From NCBI GenBank assembly GCA_018818965.1, contig JAHJQX010000026.1:1-34000 (forward strand): a stretch of DNA of 34,000 nucleotides, given 5' to 3'. Shown here piece by piece: positions 6,883 to 25,463 of this stretch (its first letter is position 1; each line of letters opens with the position of its first letter). A model generated the notes under the pieces. The model was not told the DNA's origin, did no database searches, and was given only the letters and a program-made list of their open reading frames with translations. Position numbers and translations under genes: made by a program. The stretch is from Patescibacteria group bacterium (GTDB lineage Bacteria; Patescibacteriota; JABMPQ01).

Positions 6883-7341
6883 ATGGATCGAGGAACAAAA
6901 GGTGAGTTTATCAAGACCAGAAGCGAGCTTGCCCGAACCAGGGCTGAAATTTCCGAAACTAACCAGAAAATGGATAGCGAATTTATTAAAACCAATCAAA
7001 AAATGGACTCTGGATTTGAGAAAGTAGATGAAAGATTAAACAAAATAGACAAGGGATTTGAAAATCTCGCAACTATGATTAAAGCCGGCTTTGATAATGT
7101 TGTGACCAAAGATCAACTAAAAGAAGAACTGACCGTTGAACTCAACAAGCATCGACTGAAAACGCAAGATTTCATCGAGGATAAGATTGCCGACCTAAAA
7201 GGCGAGTTAGTGTTGCTGACCAGAGGAGTGGATAACAAACTGTTTTGTATGGTAGATAAACTAGGCCAGAAGAAAATATTAGGCAAAGGCGATACTGACA
7301 AACTTGCTAGCATGGAGTCATTTCCCCGGACGGTAGCTTGA
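6883..7341 (+). CDS. Small coiled-coil protein, unknown function
   Basis: I do not recognise a named family. The 152 residues are highly charged and soluble, without signal peptide or membrane segment. Residues about 8-75 contain imperfect heptad-like repeats: TNQKMDSEF and TNQKMDSGF follow one another, then VDERLNKIDKGFENL, the pattern of a long parallel coiled coil. Residues about 85-135 form a second helical stretch (DQLKEELTVELNKHRLKTQDFIEDKI). Such proteins usually oligomerise, but no partner is suggested. The gene stands alone on the + strand behind a weak promoter, has a GAAGAGG ribosome site 7 nt before the ATG, and ends at its own terminator. It may be accessory. Confidence 0.7.
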   Translation: MDRGTKGEFIKTRSELARTRAEISETNQKMDSEFIKTNQKMDSGFEKVDERLNKIDKGFENLATMIKAGFDNVVTKDQLKEELTVELNKHRLKTQDFIEDKIADLKGELVLLTRGVDNKLFCMVDKLGQKKILGKGDTDKLASMESFPRTVA

Positions 7342-10883: not shown

Positions 10884-11315
10884 CTAGAGAAGCTTCCTCA
10901 CGGCCCGGTAGGCTCCCCGTTCTCTTTCTCGCTGGGCGCGAAACTCGGCTTCCTCATCTACATTATAGCCGTGATCTTCCTGACCCAAAACTTCTCGCTC
11001 GTGCTGATCAACATCAGCCAGGTGCCGGTCGAGCTGTTCCGGGGTACCGGGGGAGAGAGCCTGCATAGCTATGCTACTGGGAATGTCGATGGTAGCATGT
11101 ACGAACAGCAATGTACCCGCCAGCCTCACCAACGCCCAGCCGACTGCAATGTCACCACCACTGACCTTAATCTCAGTTCCCTCCACCCCGACTTCCAGCT
11201 CGCCTTCGGACGAGTAAGTGAAGAGTACCTCTGTTTCCACTTGATCTTGAGCCACTGTGAATTTTCCTCCGTAAATAGAACGTGATCCCCTAAAGAACTC
11301 CTCAAGTCTAATCAT
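10884..11315 (-). CDS. Hypothetical protein, GC-richer than neighbours
   Basis: I do not recognise this 143-residue protein. The first 75 residues look like beta strands (TEVLFTYSSEGELEVGVEG, TEIKVSGGDIAVGWALVRL), followed by one mildly hydrophobic stretch (about 58-78). The last 50 residues are charged and helical (VDEEAEFRAQRERERGAYRA). There is no signal peptide. The ATG at 11315 overlaps the TGA of the 887-aa gene as ATGA, which suggests translational coupling. An alternative is GTG at 11255, which follows a GGAGG site at about 10 nt; a TTGTTC/TATGAT promoter-like pair lies just upstream of the ATG. One sampled 60-bp line (11101-11160) is 60% GC. It ends before a good terminator. Confidence 0.6.
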   Translation of the reverse strand: MIRLEEFFRGSRSIYGGKFTVAQDQVETEVLFTYSSEGELEVGVEGTEIKVSGGDIAVGWALVRLAGTLLFVHATIDIPSSIAMQALSPGTPEQLDRHLADVDQHEREVLGQEDHGYNVDEEAEFRAQRERERGAYRAVRKLL

Positions 11316-13975
11316 AACAACCAAATAGTCAAGAACAAAAACGACCAAGCAGACTCATTTAGCTGATGTAAATATTGATAAAAATTAAAAGTGAGCACAT
11401 TTGACTTGCTGGCAACACTGGCAATAACCAAAAAAATTGACAGCAGCAACCCACTCAATATCCCCGCCCCAACCGCTGGGATTTTCCCTTCCTCGCCGGT
11501 GGCTGCTTTTCCCGTCTGTAAATCTTCCTGATAACGTGGCAACACTCGCAACCCCGCAGACGTCTTTCCCACAACACCCGTAATTGTCACCCAATCTTCC
11601 TTTTTCCACTCCGGCTTTTTGAGGTTAGCTGACTTTTGTAGAGAGATTTTTATTTCACCACTGCCATCATTGATATAGAAAGTGGTGCCAGAGGATTTGG
11701 TAAGCTGCCCAGTTACTTTTATCAACTGTCCGACGAATTGTTCTTTGACACCTCCGGTCGATAAAAACGCTGGTGACGGTAAATCCCCCAACCCCGTCAC
11801 CAACACATCCTTTTGCTCAGCAATGTTAATTTTCTTTTCCCCACTACTTTCCGAAACTTTGCCACTTACTTTCACTTGGTTTCCTAGCTTCAAGTCAGGA
11901 AAATCTTTCTTTGAGAAATAAATCTGAATCCCACCTGTTTTGTCCTGGATATAAATATAGGTGTCGCCCAGTATCTTTGGCGGAACAGTCACGACACCGG
12001 CCACCACCACCTTAGTATTTTTGGCTTGGGTTTTAGCTTGCTTGATGGTTAATATTTCAGCTTCAGTCGATTCTTTGTCTTTATCGGTCGTTTGCGTCGG
12101 GGTAGAATCTTTACTTGGAGTATCTGACTCGGTTGAGTCGGTCGAAGTGTCAGAATCATCTTTGTCCTCGTTCTCCGACTGGTTTATCTGATTGGCCTTT
12201 CCCGGAGTAGGACTAGTCGTCCACGTCCACTCGCTTTGTTCATCGCGCGCATAAGCTTGGTTCTCTTCCGCTTTACCTTCATAGGTCACTGAATCAGCCA
12301 CTTTACCATCGGGATGTAAAATACGTACCGAATCGCCGCTGTTGTTAATCGAAAGCTTAGTCTCACCGCGGTAAAAGGCTAAATACTCGCCCGGTTTAAT
12401 AACCGTGTCATCTGGAATAGTATGAGGGCTACTCCCGCCTTCTTCATCGTCTAACTGCCAACTAGCTAAATCAACGGTGGTGGCTCCTTTATTGTGTATT
12501 TCAACAAATTCGCCTTTATCATCCGTATCTGAGCCGGCGGGATTTGGGAGAAATTCAGTAACAATCACCTCCCACGAGAATGGTCCAGTTGGCTCTTTAG
12601 TTTCAGTACTGTCGTCACTGCTGTCATCACTGTCCGAATCGCTGTCATCATCTTTTCCATCGTCATTTTCTTCCGAATCCTTGTTGGTCGACACCGTAAT
12701 TTTGACCGTATCACTATCGCTGCTACCCCGGCCATCGCTGACAGTCAGCTTAGCCGTGTAGCTACCGGCTTTGGTATAGGCGTGTGTGATTGTGCAGCCA
12801 TTGCCCTGCCCATCGTCTCCAAAATCCCAAACGCAAGTTAGCTGGTCGTCATCGGGGTCGGAAGAATCGGTACCATCCAAGGTCACTTTTTCACCAACTT
12901 TAACGCTTTGATTGCTACCGGCCTCAGCTCGTGGCACATTATTCGGGGTTTCAACCTGATTAGCTGCTCCGGGCGTCAGCTTAGTGCTCCATTGCCAAGA
13001 ATTGGCGGCGAAATTATACGAGACATCGTCTTTGGCACTTTCCACATAAGTCACTGAATTGAGTAGATTTTGATCGGGCTGGTAAAGCTTAACTGAGTCG
13101 CCGCTATTGTTGAGAGCTAGTCTGCTTTGGGCGCGGTAGATGGTGAAATAGCCACCGGCCGCTACAGTCGTCAAGTCAAAGTCAGTGCCGGCAATCGTGT
13201 AAGTGGTGGTACTGGCGTCGCCCAATATCCAGCCCGCCAAATCAACTGCGACGTCACCAGCGTTATAAAGCTCGATAAACTCTTTAGTGCTCTCGTCAGT
13301 TGCCGGGTTTGGTAAAATCTCGTTTAGTCTAATTTGATCCGAATATTCTATTATGGCATTGACATTAGTCTCGCCAGGTGTCGCCGGCGAAAATATTCGC
13401 CAGTCGGCCGAAGTATCATTGTCCTGGCCATCGGCGACTAATCCAATCGACTCGCCCGCTTTTAGGTCGTCCGTATCCACGTAATCATCCTCCGTCCATA
13501 AATCAACTTCGGCGGCGGCGGCGATATCTATCCCGGCTGGGCTGCCCCAGGCCACAAAGTCAACTATCTGACTTGCCCCATCGTACAAAGCCACTTGATC
13601 ACCGCTATTGGCATAATCGCTGCCGTGGTTAGCGTAGATCACCCCCTGCCCATCAGAAAAATCATTGTCGTCAGTGCCTTCGTCCGAGCGGATTACTAGG
13701 TAGCTGTCACGCGGCAGCTCGAGCGCCGCCGGAAACGTATACTCCGCTCCACCGTCTTCGTCACTCAACGACCAGCTCGCCAGATCCACGCTGGCCAATC
13801 CACCATTGTACAGCTCCACCCATTCGACCGAATCGCTCGGTGCAAACATCACCTCGTTGATTTTTACATCGCTGTCCGCCGCTCGAACAGCTCCAAAACC
13901 AACAAAAAACTCCCCGCTCAAAAACAGCCCAGAGAGTGTTGCGGCCAAAAAACGCCGCCGAAAGATACTCTTCAT
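11312..13975 (-). CDS. Secreted or membrane-anchored lamin-tail/PKD/OB-fold protein
   Basis: A large 887-residue envelope protein. A signal peptide is at residues 1-32 (RRR, hydrophobic core, cut after VRAAD). Lamin-tail domains follow at about 36-205, 214-338 and 468-594, each with the I-N-E-x-x-x-x-P and EFIELYN / SWxLxDE pattern; repeats two and three share LNNSGDSV/INNSGDSV. A PKD domain lies at about 346-428 (VWDFGDDGQ, AGSYTAKLTVSDG). Asp/Ser and Thr/Ser linkers flank LTD3. Two OB-fold domains follow at about 652-728 and 745-822 (ILGDTYIYIQDKTGGIQIYF; TTFYINDGSGEIKISL). A transmembrane helix is near 833-854, then a short hydrophobic tail. LTD proteins with OB folds are frequent in CPR genomes and are suspected, not shown, to act in surface attachment or nucleic-acid handling. 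An AGGAGG site precedes the ATG. Confidence 0.9.
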   Translation of the reverse strand: MKSIFRRRFLAATLSGLFLSGEFFVGFGAVRAADSDVKINEVMFAPSDSVEWVELYNGGLASVDLASWSLSDEDGGAEYTFPAALELPRDSYLVIRSDEGTDDNDFSDGQGVIYANHGSDYANSGDQVALYDGASQIVDFVAWGSPAGIDIAAAAEVDLWTEDDYVDTDDLKAGESIGLVADGQDNDTSADWRIFSPATPGETNVNAIIEYSDQIRLNEILPNPATDESTKEFIELYNAGDVAVDLAGWILGDASTTTYTIAGTDFDLTTVAAGGYFTIYRAQSRLALNNSGDSVKLYQPDQNLLNSVTYVESAKDDVSYNFAANSWQWSTKLTPGAANQVETPNNVPRAEAGSNQSVKVGEKVTLDGTDSSDPDDDQLTCVWDFGDDGQGNGCTITHAYTKAGSYTAKLTVSDGRGSSDSDTVKITVSTNKDSEENDDGKDDDSDSDSDDSSDDSTETKEPTGPFSWEVIVTEFLPNPAGSDTDDKGEFVEIHNKGATTVDLASWQLDDEEGGSSPHTIPDDTVIKPGEYLAFYRGETKLSINNSGDSVRILHPDGKVADSVTYEGKAEENQAYARDEQSEWTWTTSPTPGKANQINQSENEDKDDSDTSTDSTESDTPSKDSTPTQTTDKDKESTEAEILTIKQAKTQAKNTKVVVAGVVTVPPKILGDTYIYIQDKTGGIQIYFSKKDFPDLKLGNQVKVSGKVSESSGEKKINIAEQKDVLVTGLGDLPSPAFLSTGGVKEQFVGQLIKVTGQLTKSSGTTFYINDGSGEIKISLQKSANLKKPEWKKEDWVTITGVVGKTSAGLRVLPRYQEDLQTGKAATGEEGKIPAVGAGILSGLLLSIFLVIASVASKSNVLTFNFYQYLHQLNESAWSFLFLTIWLL

Positions 13976-14127: not shown

Positions 14128-14156
14128 TTGACAATCATAATTTACAATGCTACACT
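14128..14156 (+). promoter_or_regulatory. Strong promoter of the 14.2-kb RNA
   Basis: Perfect -35 TTGACA (14128-14133), 17-bp spacer, -10 TACACT (14151-14156). The expected start is near 14163. No gene starts for the next 170 bp. Confidence 0.78.
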
Positions 14157-14162
14157 GCAACC

Positions 14163-14306
14163 TCTCAAGGTAGACATTTGAAAACTGAATACTATTCCTG
14201 GCAAATGAAAGTTTTGTGACAAACTTTTGGGAAAAAGCTGTTATATGCCAAGAATAACCACAACTTTAAAAAGACCGCATCCCTAGGGACAATGCGGTCT
14301 TTTTTT
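14163..14306 (+). ncRNA. Candidate structured small RNA or regulatory leader
   Basis: The 355-bp gap 13976-14330 has no convincing gene, but it has a strong promoter followed 105 nt later by a strong terminator, so a transcript of about 145 nt is expected. It has internal structure: TATTCCTGGCA (14193-14203) pairs with TGCCAAGAATA (14246-14256) with one mismatch. Inside lies a 7-bp hairpin AAAGTTT/AAACTTT (14208-14214, 14221-14227). A competing pair CATTTG/CAAATG (14175-14180, 14202-14207) overlaps the long helix, so two folds are mutually exclusive. It may be an independent RNA, or an attenuator/riboswitch for the gene at 14331. It matches no RNA family that I can name. Confidence 0.55.
14268..14306 (+). 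terminator. Strong terminator upstream of the 14331 gene
   Basis: AAAAAGACCGCAT (14268-14280) pairs with ATGCGGTCTTTTT around an 11-nt loop containing CCCTAGGG, ending in a run of T. It ends 25 bp before the next start codon, the layout of an attenuator. Confidence 0.92.
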
Positions 14307-14330
14307 AGTTCACCGAAAGAAGGAGAAAAA

Positions 14331-14594
14331 ATGAAAGCACTTTGGGGAAAAATTTGGATTGCTGCTTATAAAAGAGAGGTGCGGATACTATATCGAGATC
14401 TTGAAATTCATAAGGAGATTATAAGCGGGTTAGGATACGAGTTCGAAGAGATAAAGGTGAATATTCATACTCTCAACGGCCTCCACCGGGGAATCATTCG
14501 CAGCATTCAGATTAAGATAGCTTTCTGGGTTGCTGTCTTCTCGATGGTGGCGTGGATAATAGGCACACTCTATCACTGTCCTAAGTTCTTTTAA
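14331..14594 (+). CDS. Small C-tail membrane protein, unknown function
   Basis: No family is recognised. The 87 residues begin with an amphipathic basic helix (MKALWGKIWIAAYKREVRIL), continue with a charged segment (about 21-55) and end in one transmembrane helix at about 62-80 (IAFWVAVFSMVAWIIGTLY). This gives a tail-anchored layout with the N-terminus probably in the cytoplasm. The frame runs back to an ATG at 14292, but that codon is inside the terminator stem. The ATG at 14331 has an AAGGAG site 6 nt upstream and is preferred. Expression probably depends on read-through of the preceding terminator, since no other promoter is obvious. It is flanked by terminators on both sides. Confidence 0.72.
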   Translation: MKALWGKIWIAAYKREVRILYRDLEIHKEIISGLGYEFEEIKVNIHTLNGLHRGIIRSIQIKIAFWVAVFSMVAWIIGTLYHCPKFF

Positions 14595-14599
14595 ATCCT

Positions 14600-14637
14600 A
14601 CAGGAAACACCATGTTATGCGTGTTCCCTGTTTTTTT
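14600..14637 (+). terminator. Terminator after the 14331 gene
   Basis: ACAGGAAACAC pairs with GTGTTCCCTGT (11 bp, one A-C mismatch) around a 10-nt loop, then seven T. It separates this gene from convergent rnhA. Confidence 0.88.
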
Positions 14638-14638
14638 G

Positions 14639-15052
14639 TCACCCCGTCTCCCCATCAATCGCCTCATTCACTAGCCTATCCGCTTCTTCGTTCTTCTCCC
14701 GCACCACATGAGCATAAGAAATCTGCTCAAAATATTTGACTAATTCTACCACCTCCGCGTAGAGAGGCTTTAATTTAGCGTTTTTTACTCTATATTTCCC
14801 TTGCATCTGTTTTACAACCAATTCGCTGTCTAGATAACACTCAACTTCGTCTGCGCCGAGAGTTTTAGCTCTGACTAACCCCAAAATCAACGCTTTATAC
14901 TCGGCCTGATTATTGGTCTGCTCGCCAATATATTCACCCAGCTTTTGAACAACTATTTTGTTCATGTCGTAAATTACTACCCCTACCCCCGCTGGACCGG
15001 GATTGCCGCGGGCACCACCATCGGTATAGATTATTAACTTTTTGTATCTCAT
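14639..15052 (-). CDS. rnhA: Ribonuclease HI family protein
   Basis: This enzyme cuts the RNA strand of RNA-DNA hybrids. The 137 residues cover a complete type 1 RNase H fold of the compact, basic-protrusion-lacking kind common in archaea and CPR (RVT_3 class). The catalytic acidic set is visible: Asp in IIYTDGGARGNPGPAG (residue 11), Glu in NNQAEYKALILGL (about 51), Asp in CYLDSELVVKQMQG (about 74), and Asp in REKNEEADRLVNEA (about 127). The stop TGA at 14639 shows that TGA is not recoded. It lies 108 bp downstream of recJ and may share its transcript. Confidence 0.92.
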   Translation of the reverse strand: MRYKKLIIYTDGGARGNPGPAGVGVVIYDMNKIVVQKLGEYIGEQTNNQAEYKALILGLVRAKTLGADEVECYLDSELVVKQMQGKYRVKNAKLKPLYAEVVELVKYFEQISYAHVVREKNEEADRLVNEAIDGETG

Positions 15053-15078
15053 ATTTTCTATTTATTGTGGGGCCAATT

Positions 15079-15168
15079 AAAACTAGATCGGCCATGGTTG
15101 ACGAACGAACCCGGCTCCGCCGAAAGCGGAGCTATGGTGAGTGAGTCAATTATGGCTGATCTAGTTTT
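15079..15168 (+). other. 90-bp inverted-repeat element, 24-bp helix with inner GC hairpin
   Basis: Arms 15079-15102 (AAAACTAGATCGGCCATGG...) and 15145-15168 are reverse complements at 21 of 24 positions. All three differences are G in the left arm opposite T in the right, so + strand RNA forms an unbroken 24-bp helix with three G-U pairs; minus strand RNA would have three A-C mismatches. Inside sits a perfect 7-bp GC-rich hairpin (GCTCCGC, CGAAA loop, GCGGAGC; 15114-15132). The recJ stop codon (15161-15163) lies in the right arm. It may be a + strand RNA structure, a recJ 3'-end structure or a degenerate mobile repeat. Confidence 0.65.
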
Positions 15169-16903
15169 GTTTGTCACCCACCCTTATATCTTCTACTTTC
15201 AACTGCAACGTCTTCGTCCCGTTCCAAACATTACAATCAATTTGACCAGCCAGATCAATCTTGTCCCCGATATTTAAATCAGCTGCGTACTTACCTAGTC
15301 GAAAACCTATCACGTCACGACTTATTGTATCTTTCTCATCGCCTACTTTCATTTTCAAATGACTCCCCTGCTTACCAATCGCCCGCACGTCCCGTATATA
15401 CACGCTCGGTACAACAAACAACGGCTGCCTATTATCCGCTCCAAAAGGCTGAAAACGCAACAGCGAATTATATAAATCCCAGTCGACTTTTTTAATATCT
15501 AGCTCGGCATCGAGCGCTAGAGTCGGCACTAAATCTTCATCCTTAATTTGCTCCTCGGCTAATCTCTGCAAACGCTGGTAAAATTCATCGACATTCTCCT
15601 TTTTTAAACCAAAACCAGCCGCCATCTTGTGCCCGCCGAACTCGAGTAAAATGTCCTTACAAGAGAAAATCGCCTCTATTAAGTTAAACTGCTCAATACT
15701 CCGCCCCGAGCCAGTACATTGCTTTTCCCCTTCCTCCAACACCAAAGTCGGACGAAAAAATTCTTCGGTGAGTTTGCCGGCGACAATCCCCACCACCCCG
15801 AGCGGCCAGTCCTGACCTTTGGCGAGCAGGATTTTATTCTTGGCAACGTCATCTTTAATCTGCGTTCGCGCCGCCCGAAATATTTTATCCGTCACCCGCT
15901 GGCGTTGATAATTAGTCTGCTGCAGCTGCTGGGCATAATTTTGCGCTTCGGCCATCGTCTGGGTCGTAAAAAGCTTGAAGGCGACATTGGCGTGATCAAG
16001 TCGGCCGGCAGCATTGATTCGCGGTGCCAGAAAAAATCCAACCGCTTCCGTATCAACTTTGTCCCGCTCTACTCCCGCTACTTCAAAAAGCGCCCGCAAA
16101 CCCACCCGCTCGCTGTCACGTAAGATGTCGAGGCCGTATTTCACCAGTGTCCTGTTCTCTGAAATAATCGGTGAACAATCGGCGATGGTGCCGATAGTAA
16201 CTAAATCCAAAGCTCGCTTGACAAACCGCTCATCGACCCCCGGCCGCAGAATATCTGGCTTGGATTTTATTATTGCCTGGACTAATTTGAAAACTATCCC
16301 TACTCCGGCTAGTTCCTTGAAGGGATATTTGTCACCTTCCCGCTTGGAATCCACTACAATATACTGGCGAGAAAATTTATGGGCGACATGGTGATGATCA
16401 GTAACAATGACATCAATACCCTTTTTCCGCGCATAATCAATTTCCTTCTTATTAGAAACGCCACAGTCACAAGTTACAATCAGATCTACTTTCTTGTCAG
16501 CTAACCAGTCGATCGCTTTATTATTCAAACCATAGCCCTCACTTACTCGATCAGGAATGTAAACCTGTCCGGTTAAGCCAAGCGCATCGCGAAAAAGCTC
16601 CATTAGCAATACTGAAGACGTCACCCCGTCCGCATCATAGTCGCCGAAAATCCCTACTCGCTCTTTTTTCTTAACGGCTTGTTCAATCCGCTCCACCGCC
16701 CGATCCATGTCTTTGAGCAAAAAAGGGTCAAACAAATCCTGCGAGTAATCCGGATTAAAAAACTCGTCTACTTTTTCCTGGGTGTCGAGACCACGATTAT
16801 ATAGTAGTTGGGAAGTGCGTACGTCAAACTCGGGGAATTTGCTAACAAAACTCCGCGGTGCCCTGTCCGCTACCCGCCATTTTTTACCTGAAAGTGAAGT
16901 CAT
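15161..16903 (-). CDS. recJ: Single-stranded-DNA-specific exonuclease RecJ
   Basis: RecJ degrades 5' single-stranded DNA ends in recombination and repair. The 580 residues match the usual core length. The DHH domain has VGIFGDYDADGVTSSVLL (about 83-100), VTCDCGVSNKKEID and VTDHHHVAHK, the metal-binding motifs. The linker LAPRINAAGRLDHANVAF follows at about 290. The DHHA1 domain has GSGRSIEQFNLIEAI and FGGHKMAAGFGLK (about 405-440), then a C-terminal OB fold to the end. It overlaps the phosphatase gene upstream by 4 bp (ATG at 16903 within its end). All catalytic motifs are intact. Confidence 0.96.
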   Translation of the reverse strand: MTSLSGKKWRVADRAPRSFVSKFPEFDVRTSQLLYNRGLDTQEKVDEFFNPDYSQDLFDPFLLKDMDRAVERIEQAVKKKERVGIFGDYDADGVTSSVLLMELFRDALGLTGQVYIPDRVSEGYGLNNKAIDWLADKKVDLIVTCDCGVSNKKEIDYARKKGIDVIVTDHHHVAHKFSRQYIVVDSKREGDKYPFKELAGVGIVFKLVQAIIKSKPDILRPGVDERFVKRALDLVTIGTIADCSPIISENRTLVKYGLDILRDSERVGLRALFEVAGVERDKVDTEAVGFFLAPRINAAGRLDHANVAFKLFTTQTMAEAQNYAQQLQQTNYQRQRVTDKIFRAARTQIKDDVAKNKILLAKGQDWPLGVVGIVAGKLTEEFFRPTLVLEEGEKQCTGSGRSIEQFNLIEAIFSCKDILLEFGGHKMAAGFGLKKENVDEFYQRLQRLAEEQIKDEDLVPTLALDAELDIKKVDWDLYNSLLRFQPFGADNRQPLFVVPSVYIRDVRAIGKQGSHLKMKVGDEKDTISRDVIGFRLGKYAADLNIGDKIDLAGQIDCNVWNGTKTLQLKVEDIRVGDKQN

Positions 16904-24590: not shown

Positions 24591-25463
24591 CTAGTAGACC
24601 TTGGTCATCCAGCTGCAACCATACCAGGCGAAGCAGTGCTTGCCGGCTCCGTCCTGGCACATGTTCGTCCCCACCAGATCCATCTTGCAACTGGGGATCG
24701 GCAGGGGGAAGAGTTCGAAGGGAAAAATGAAAAATTGCACGAACCCGTAGCGGACGGTTACGGGCTGCCAGGAGTTGGTGGTCGTGTCCCAGTAGGTGGT
24801 GACCACGTCCGATGGGATACCAAACGTGCACTCCGTGCTCCCGCAGACTCCGGTCACCGCCACATTGCCCGCCTGCACTCCCGGCACCTGATGGAAGAAA
24901 ACGGCTTGCTGGTACCAGGCAAAGCCACCTTGGGAGGTGACAATCTGGTTGCCCACCTTGGCCACCTTGAGACAGCTTGAGCCGGCCGCGTCGGAGGTGA
25001 CTGCCACGGTGTCCTGCGTCGGCGCCAGGAAGTCCGGCAGATCGGGCAGAACCAGAGCGTCGGGCGTGGCAGTGTCCGGTGCAACCAGGTCAGGGGTGGG
25101 TCCATCGGGCGTGGCAGTGTCCGGTACAGCCAGGTCAGGGGTGGATCCATCGGGCACGGCAATGTCCGGGGCAACCGCATCCGGAACCGCGCTGTCCGGC
25201 ACACCCGCATCCGGTACCATGCCCGCCTCACTGGCCAACGTCTGGAACGAGCCACCTTTGATCAGCGGGTCGATCCACTTACTGGGATCGATCGGCTTGG
25301 CCTGCTCCGACCGGTTCTTGCCAGTCGCATCCAGCGTCTCCACCCCGCAGCCCTCCAGCAGGGCGATGACCGTCGCCAGCACAAACACCACGGCTATCAA
25401 CAATACCCCCCGCAAGACCTTCCACTTCAGCTCATCACCGGACATCAGCTTCTGCATCAACAT
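24591..25463 (-). CDS. Putative Cys-rich secreted lipoprotein with Pro-Asp repeats
   Basis: No family is recognised. The 290 residues start with an 18-residue basic/polar leader, a hydrophobic helix (about 19-37) and ALLEGCG, an imperfect lipobox (Glu at -2 is atypical), so it is either a lipoprotein or a membrane-anchored exported protein. Residues about 83-145 are a Pro-Asp repeat tract (VPDTATPDGPTPDL-like, 15-residue period). The C-terminal part (about 160-290) holds eight Cys, suggesting disulfides outside the cytoplasm. The gene is far richer in GC than its neighbours: 42 of 60 bases in 25021-25080, against 27 of 60 in pgk at 23641-23700. Pro-Asp spacer tracts of this kind resemble those of myxobacterial and other deltaproteobacterial surface proteins, which suggests transfer. 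A GGAGGA site supports the ATG at 25463. Confidence 0.75.
   Translation of the reverse strand: MLMQKLMSGDELKWKVLRGVLLIAVVFVLATVIALLEGCGVETLDATGKNRSEQAKPIDPSKWIDPLIKGGSFQTLASEAGMVPDAGVPDSAVPDAVAPDIAVPDGSTPDLAVPDTATPDGPTPDLVAPDTATPDALVLPDLPDFLAPTQDTVAVTSDAAGSSCLKVAKVGNQIVTSQGGFAWYQQAVFFHQVPGVQAGNVAVTGVCGSTECTFGIPSDVVTTYWDTTTNSWQPVTVRYGFVQFFIFPFELFPLPIPSCKMDLVGTNMCQDGAGKHCFAWYGCSWMTKVY
25074..25208. repeat. 45-bp tandem repeat in the Pro-Asp tract
   Basis: GTCCGG recurs at 25074, 25119 and 25164, marking a 45-bp (15-codon) period; the first two copies are nearly identical over most of their length, the third decays. The repeat encodes the Pro-Asp spacer and can change length by slippage or recombination. 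Confidence 0.8.

Follow-up and report, generated by a model that had tools for sequence, protein, structure and literature searches.

Type III toxin-antitoxin loci are ordered as a promoter, an RNA, a partial terminator and a small downstream gene. Parts in the same order occur at the locus described here (positions 14128-14594), but its RNA has no tandem repeats, on which ground the assignment to this class was rejected. Its protein is helical and membrane-type, without a family match; as a predicted single long helix without a Pfam or PADLOC match, it was rejected as an endoribonuclease of the ToxN, CptN or TenpN type. ToxIN and CptIN are described as type III toxin-antitoxin loci (e.g., PMC8860590, PMC4627078).

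The locus also resembles attenuation and riboswitch leaders, having an intrinsic terminator between a promoter and the Shine-Dalgarno sequence of a single downstream gene; it differs from them in lacking a conserved aptamer, a computed antiterminator and an Rfam match. Rfam returned zero matches for the leader RNA at the gathering cut-off. The best sub-threshold match was Thr_leader (RF00506; 23.5 bits, with the cut-off at 55 bits; E 0.058), which shares a terminator hairpin with A-tract and U-tract; the terminator contributes most of this score. A brief literature search on regulatory RNAs of Patescibacteria found next to nothing. The segment TTTGAAAACTGAATA (14177-14191) resembles a sequence of Firmicute rRNA spacers. 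The genome contains no second exact copy, and a link to rRNA leaders was rejected because the organism's own 16S leader lacks it.

The locus lies in a window of 34,000 nt (the whole stretch of DNA that was analyzed) from the 1.2-Mb genome of an ultrasmall bacterium that its relatives place in the Patescibacteria, and the features of the locus are listed in Table 1.

Table 1. Positions in the window of the leader locus, its predicted elements and the flanking genes.
Feature	Positions	Strand	Basis or remark
Lamin-tail/PKD-domain (LTD) surface protein gene	11312-13975	-	
Sigma-70-like promoter, TTGACA-17-TACACT	14128-14156	+	10/12 match; TGn before -10
-35 element, TTGACA	14128-14133		17-nt spacer to -10
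-10 element, TACACT	14151-14156		
Predicted short terminated RNA (leader or small RNA), about 144-145 nt	14163-14306	+	Promoter and terminator positions
Long imperfect hairpin	14193-14256	+	TATTC/GAATA, TGGCA/TGCCA, ATGA/TTAT and inner pairs
Candidate RNA helix arms			TATTCCTGGCA/TGCCAAGAATA
Inner inverted repeat, AAAGTTT-TGTGAC-AAACTTT	14208-14227	no strand	7-nt arms; read from sequence
Intrinsic terminator, 12-bp stem and U7	14268-14306	+	Folding, sequence
Shine-Dalgarno sequence of downstream ORF, AAGGAGAA	14320-14327	+	Read from sequence
Orphan 87-aa coiled-coil/membrane ORF	14331-14594	+	Predicted single long helix, hydrophobic C-terminal segment
Terminator after ORF, CAGGAAACAC...GTGTTCCCTG-T7	14600-14637	+	Sequence/fold scan
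rnhA-recJ	14639-16903	-	

To the leading explanation we give roughly an even chance: a lineage-specific plus-strand unit whose transcripts mostly end at the first terminator as a leader RNA of about 145 nt and only occasionally extend into the orphan gene. RNA polymerase would start near 14163 at a promoter whose activity is predicted and which looks constitutive. Most transcripts would stop at 14300-14306, leaving the leader RNA with its single long hairpin, and a presumed minority would read through and end at 14637; if translated from the Shine-Dalgarno sequence of the ORF, these would yield the small orphan membrane protein. The terminator would act mainly as a fixed attenuator that holds expression low, and it may additionally halt antisense transcription from recJ-rnhA; the short RNA might have a separate role. 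Regulation of the read-through step is possible, and nothing computed supports a switch.

The order of promoter, hairpin, terminator, Shine-Dalgarno sequence, ORF and second terminator can fairly be read as supporting a transcription unit. Against it stand a promoter match not above chance, a weak coding score of the ORF and the conservation of no part. The gene upstream of the leader runs the opposite way and only the short RNA lies upstream of the terminator on the plus strand. Both promoter elements and the 17-nt spacer were located where a first-pass annotation of the sequence had placed them. That annotation called the promoter strong; the motif is present, but promoter-like sites in the region number 2, against 2.2 expected from shuffles, and the match is thus not above chance expectation. 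Exact TTGACA with at least four of six -10 positions occurs six times in the 34 kb, several of these within genes.

To reach the ORF, a plus-strand transcript that starts at this promoter has to cross the first terminator, which was borne out as a strong one. Its arms, AAAAAGACCGCA (14268-14279) and TGCGGTCTTTTT (14293-14304), form a 12-bp stem with a small inner CCC/GGG helix, and the U-run spans 14300-14306, as in the GC-rich hairpin followed by a U-run of intrinsic terminators. The fold beats its shuffles (z -5.6, 0 of 500 as good). In a simple scan for hairpins followed by a T-run, the site ranked among the most stable of the 34 kb; another simple scan, whose rule limits loop size, reported none here. 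The reverse complement ends in T5 and the terminator is therefore possibly bidirectional. The annotated spacing also held (25 nt between the last U of the run and the ATG at 14331), as did the ribosome site and start of a small membrane protein: a GGAG Shine-Dalgarno sequence precedes the ATG, and GGAG is meaningful because the 3' end of this genome's 16S retains the anti-Shine-Dalgarno sequence CACCTCCTT (CCTCC). The annotated layout, with a short transcript that terminates ahead of an ORF for a small membrane protein, is a fair reading. The annotation's probable new structured RNA is at present a candidate only, no relative having turned up in the collections searched, and the two-state attenuator or riboswitch attached to it is disfavored, no antiterminator having been found. 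As a separate observation (C39:20880-24500, about 1-885), the 16S gene is interrupted directly after TTGTACA by an insertion of about 900 nt and resumes at ACACCGCCCGTCA. The insertion gives a match of 52.9 bits to a group II intron domain (RF01998) and carries a 148-aa ORF (378-824 within C39:20880-24500) whose sequence suggests a LAGLIDADG homing endonuclease.

The downstream ORF may not be a gene, because its coding score is low: among the six frames it has the highest codon score, which is only 1.3 sd above shuffled sequence and lies below that of 98.6% of 87-codon pieces from the window's own genes. AlphaFold, run on the single sequence, gave one long helix (mean pLDDT 84, pTM 0.40), a model that, for one helical sequence, is not strong evidence. 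Relatives of the ORF were found in none of 380 Patescibacteria genomes, one congener, phages, plasmids and viral contigs. Three weak matches in the phylum were rejected, two because they overlap the reading frames of other genes and the third as 32 residues inside a 713-aa frame. Two further ORFs in the window were recorded: a lipoprotein-like ORF of 290 aa (24591-25463) that contains a Pro/Asp/Val repeat (PDxAVPD...) and matches nothing in Pfam, and a coiled-coil ORF of 152 aa (6883-7341, plus strand), not confidently assigned to any family and flanked by minus-strand genes.

The weak coding score would suit a free-standing, trans-acting small RNA with the ORF incidental or not a gene, and the locus does form a complete small transcription unit with its own terminator. 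We nevertheless consider this unlikely. The ORF has a good Shine-Dalgarno sequence and its own terminator, and no homologue of the RNA was found in the 380 Patescibacteria genomes, one congener, phages, plasmids and viral contigs. Nor did antisense pairing of the leader with its neighbors, sought for four targets, yield anything convincing. Pairing with the start regions of the orphan and LTD genes was equaled by 24 and 94% of shuffled leaders, respectively; for the recJ start, 3% of shuffles were as good, in one of the four tests.

When 58 relatives were searched at the DNA level for the RNA, the only hits besides the locus were three short matches at chance level, and seven genomes of the class, phages, plasmids and E. 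coli added nothing further. A whole-RNA, single-sequence covariance model run on the 380 phylum genomes gave two weak non-self matches, both rejected as relatives because a terminator accounts for most of each match. A model built likewise for the hairpin found only itself among 38 relatives, and an exact-pattern search of viral contigs found no relative. The single congener in the comparison has a completeness of 79%, and searches of it recovered neither recJ nor rnhA, so the absence of the RNA there says nothing.

Between promoter and terminator, the structure of the leader bears on the remaining explanations. The predicted RNA (14163-14306) folds with a z of -4.1 with the terminator and -1.8 without it; for the 106-nt leader before the terminator, 29 of 500 shuffles were as good, so its structure is marginal against chance. 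The long hairpin alone reached z -3.5 to -4.1 (0-1 of 500 shuffles), with limits chosen after folding, and of 1358 pieces of 65 nt taken from the window, 53 equaled or exceeded its folding strength, the top ones being mostly richer in G+C. The 11-nt long-range helix of the first-pass annotation is present as this hairpin, whose outer repeat is complementary at 10 of 11 positions, but on the plus strand it is broken by a C.A mismatch (C14198/A14251), whereas on the minus strand it is continuous with a U.G pair. That pattern is unlike selection for a plus-strand RNA helix, although one position proves little; total folding energy is better on the plus strand than on the minus strand. The annotated inner hairpin corresponds to the 7-nt inverted repeat AAAGTTT/AAACTTT, which pairs in the minus-strand fold and in plus-strand prefixes. 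The competing helix is probably CATTTG (14175-14180) with CAAATG (14202-14207), an early alternative seen in short 5' prefixes; in prefix folding it forms first, followed by the long hairpin once the 3' arm of the latter is made. It is a rival to the hairpin but has no contact with the terminator.

An outer helix continuous only on the minus strand is what might be expected if the region were decayed or rearranged intergenic DNA, holding a chance promoter, inverted repeats, a bidirectional terminator of recJ-rnhA and a part-duplicated gene start. In three of five relatives from the same order, rnpB directly follows recJ-rnhA, and here it is on another contig; one of the two lineages has therefore undergone a rearrangement at the rnhA end. 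Moreover, leader positions 14203-14245 (AAATGAAAG...ACTTTTGGGAAAAA...GCTGTTATA) align with the start of the downstream ORF (14329-14371), sharing ATGAAAG...ACTTT-GGGAAAAA, at a post hoc p of about 0.005-0.02 (0.0065 against shuffles, 0.0045 against other pieces of the window, 0.018 with other gap costs). The leader segment may thus have arisen by duplication of the gene start followed by decay, a weak reading because the alignment was found after looking. Two U-tailed, same-strand terminators around an ORF with a Shine-Dalgarno sequence are hard to explain by decay alone, and we regard this explanation as quite unlikely.

A regulated attenuator or riboswitch, in which the terminator ahead of the membrane-protein gene responds to a ligand, a protein or the translation of a leader peptide, is clearly improbable as well, even with the terminator in the 5' leader just ahead of the start codon. 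The first-pass annotation had suggested two exclusive folds, and the computed folds go against this: the best fold with the terminator has -39.3 kcal/mol, against -20.9 kcal/mol with the terminator forbidden, and the 5' arm is then left unpaired. Since forbidding it costs 18.4 kcal/mol and the arm has no alternative pairing, the terminator should form by default. The best upstream partner of the 5' arm reaches -8.5 kcal/mol, against -18.3 kcal/mol for its own 3' arm, and in prefixes the arm forms no strong helix. A riboswitch-like, two-state switch is disfavored in these models since the terminator arm is not captured by any other part of the leader in the computed folds and prefixes; computed without ligand or protein, they weigh only against a switch encoded in the leader alone. 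Leader-peptide translation would draw on a 13-codon frame at 14245-14286 (ATG CCA AGA ATA ACC ACA ACT ... CCC TAG), which has three consecutive Thr codons and lacks a clear Shine-Dalgarno sequence. Because it runs into the 5' arm of the terminator, a translating ribosome would open the terminator, a point to which we attach low weight. That a novel cis-regulatory RNA of one Patescibacteria lineage controls the orphan membrane protein, perhaps through translation of this 13-codon leader, is highly unlikely.

The mostly terminated unit with occasional read-through thus remains the explanation that we prefer, and the transcribed segment is, judging from its elements, probably a short terminated leader or a small RNA. 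The layout is ordinary in kind and uncharacterized. At present its value is mainly that of a candidate for comparison with RNA data from Patescibacteria; if true, a confirmed leader would be one lineage-specific example of a regulatory RNA in these bacteria.
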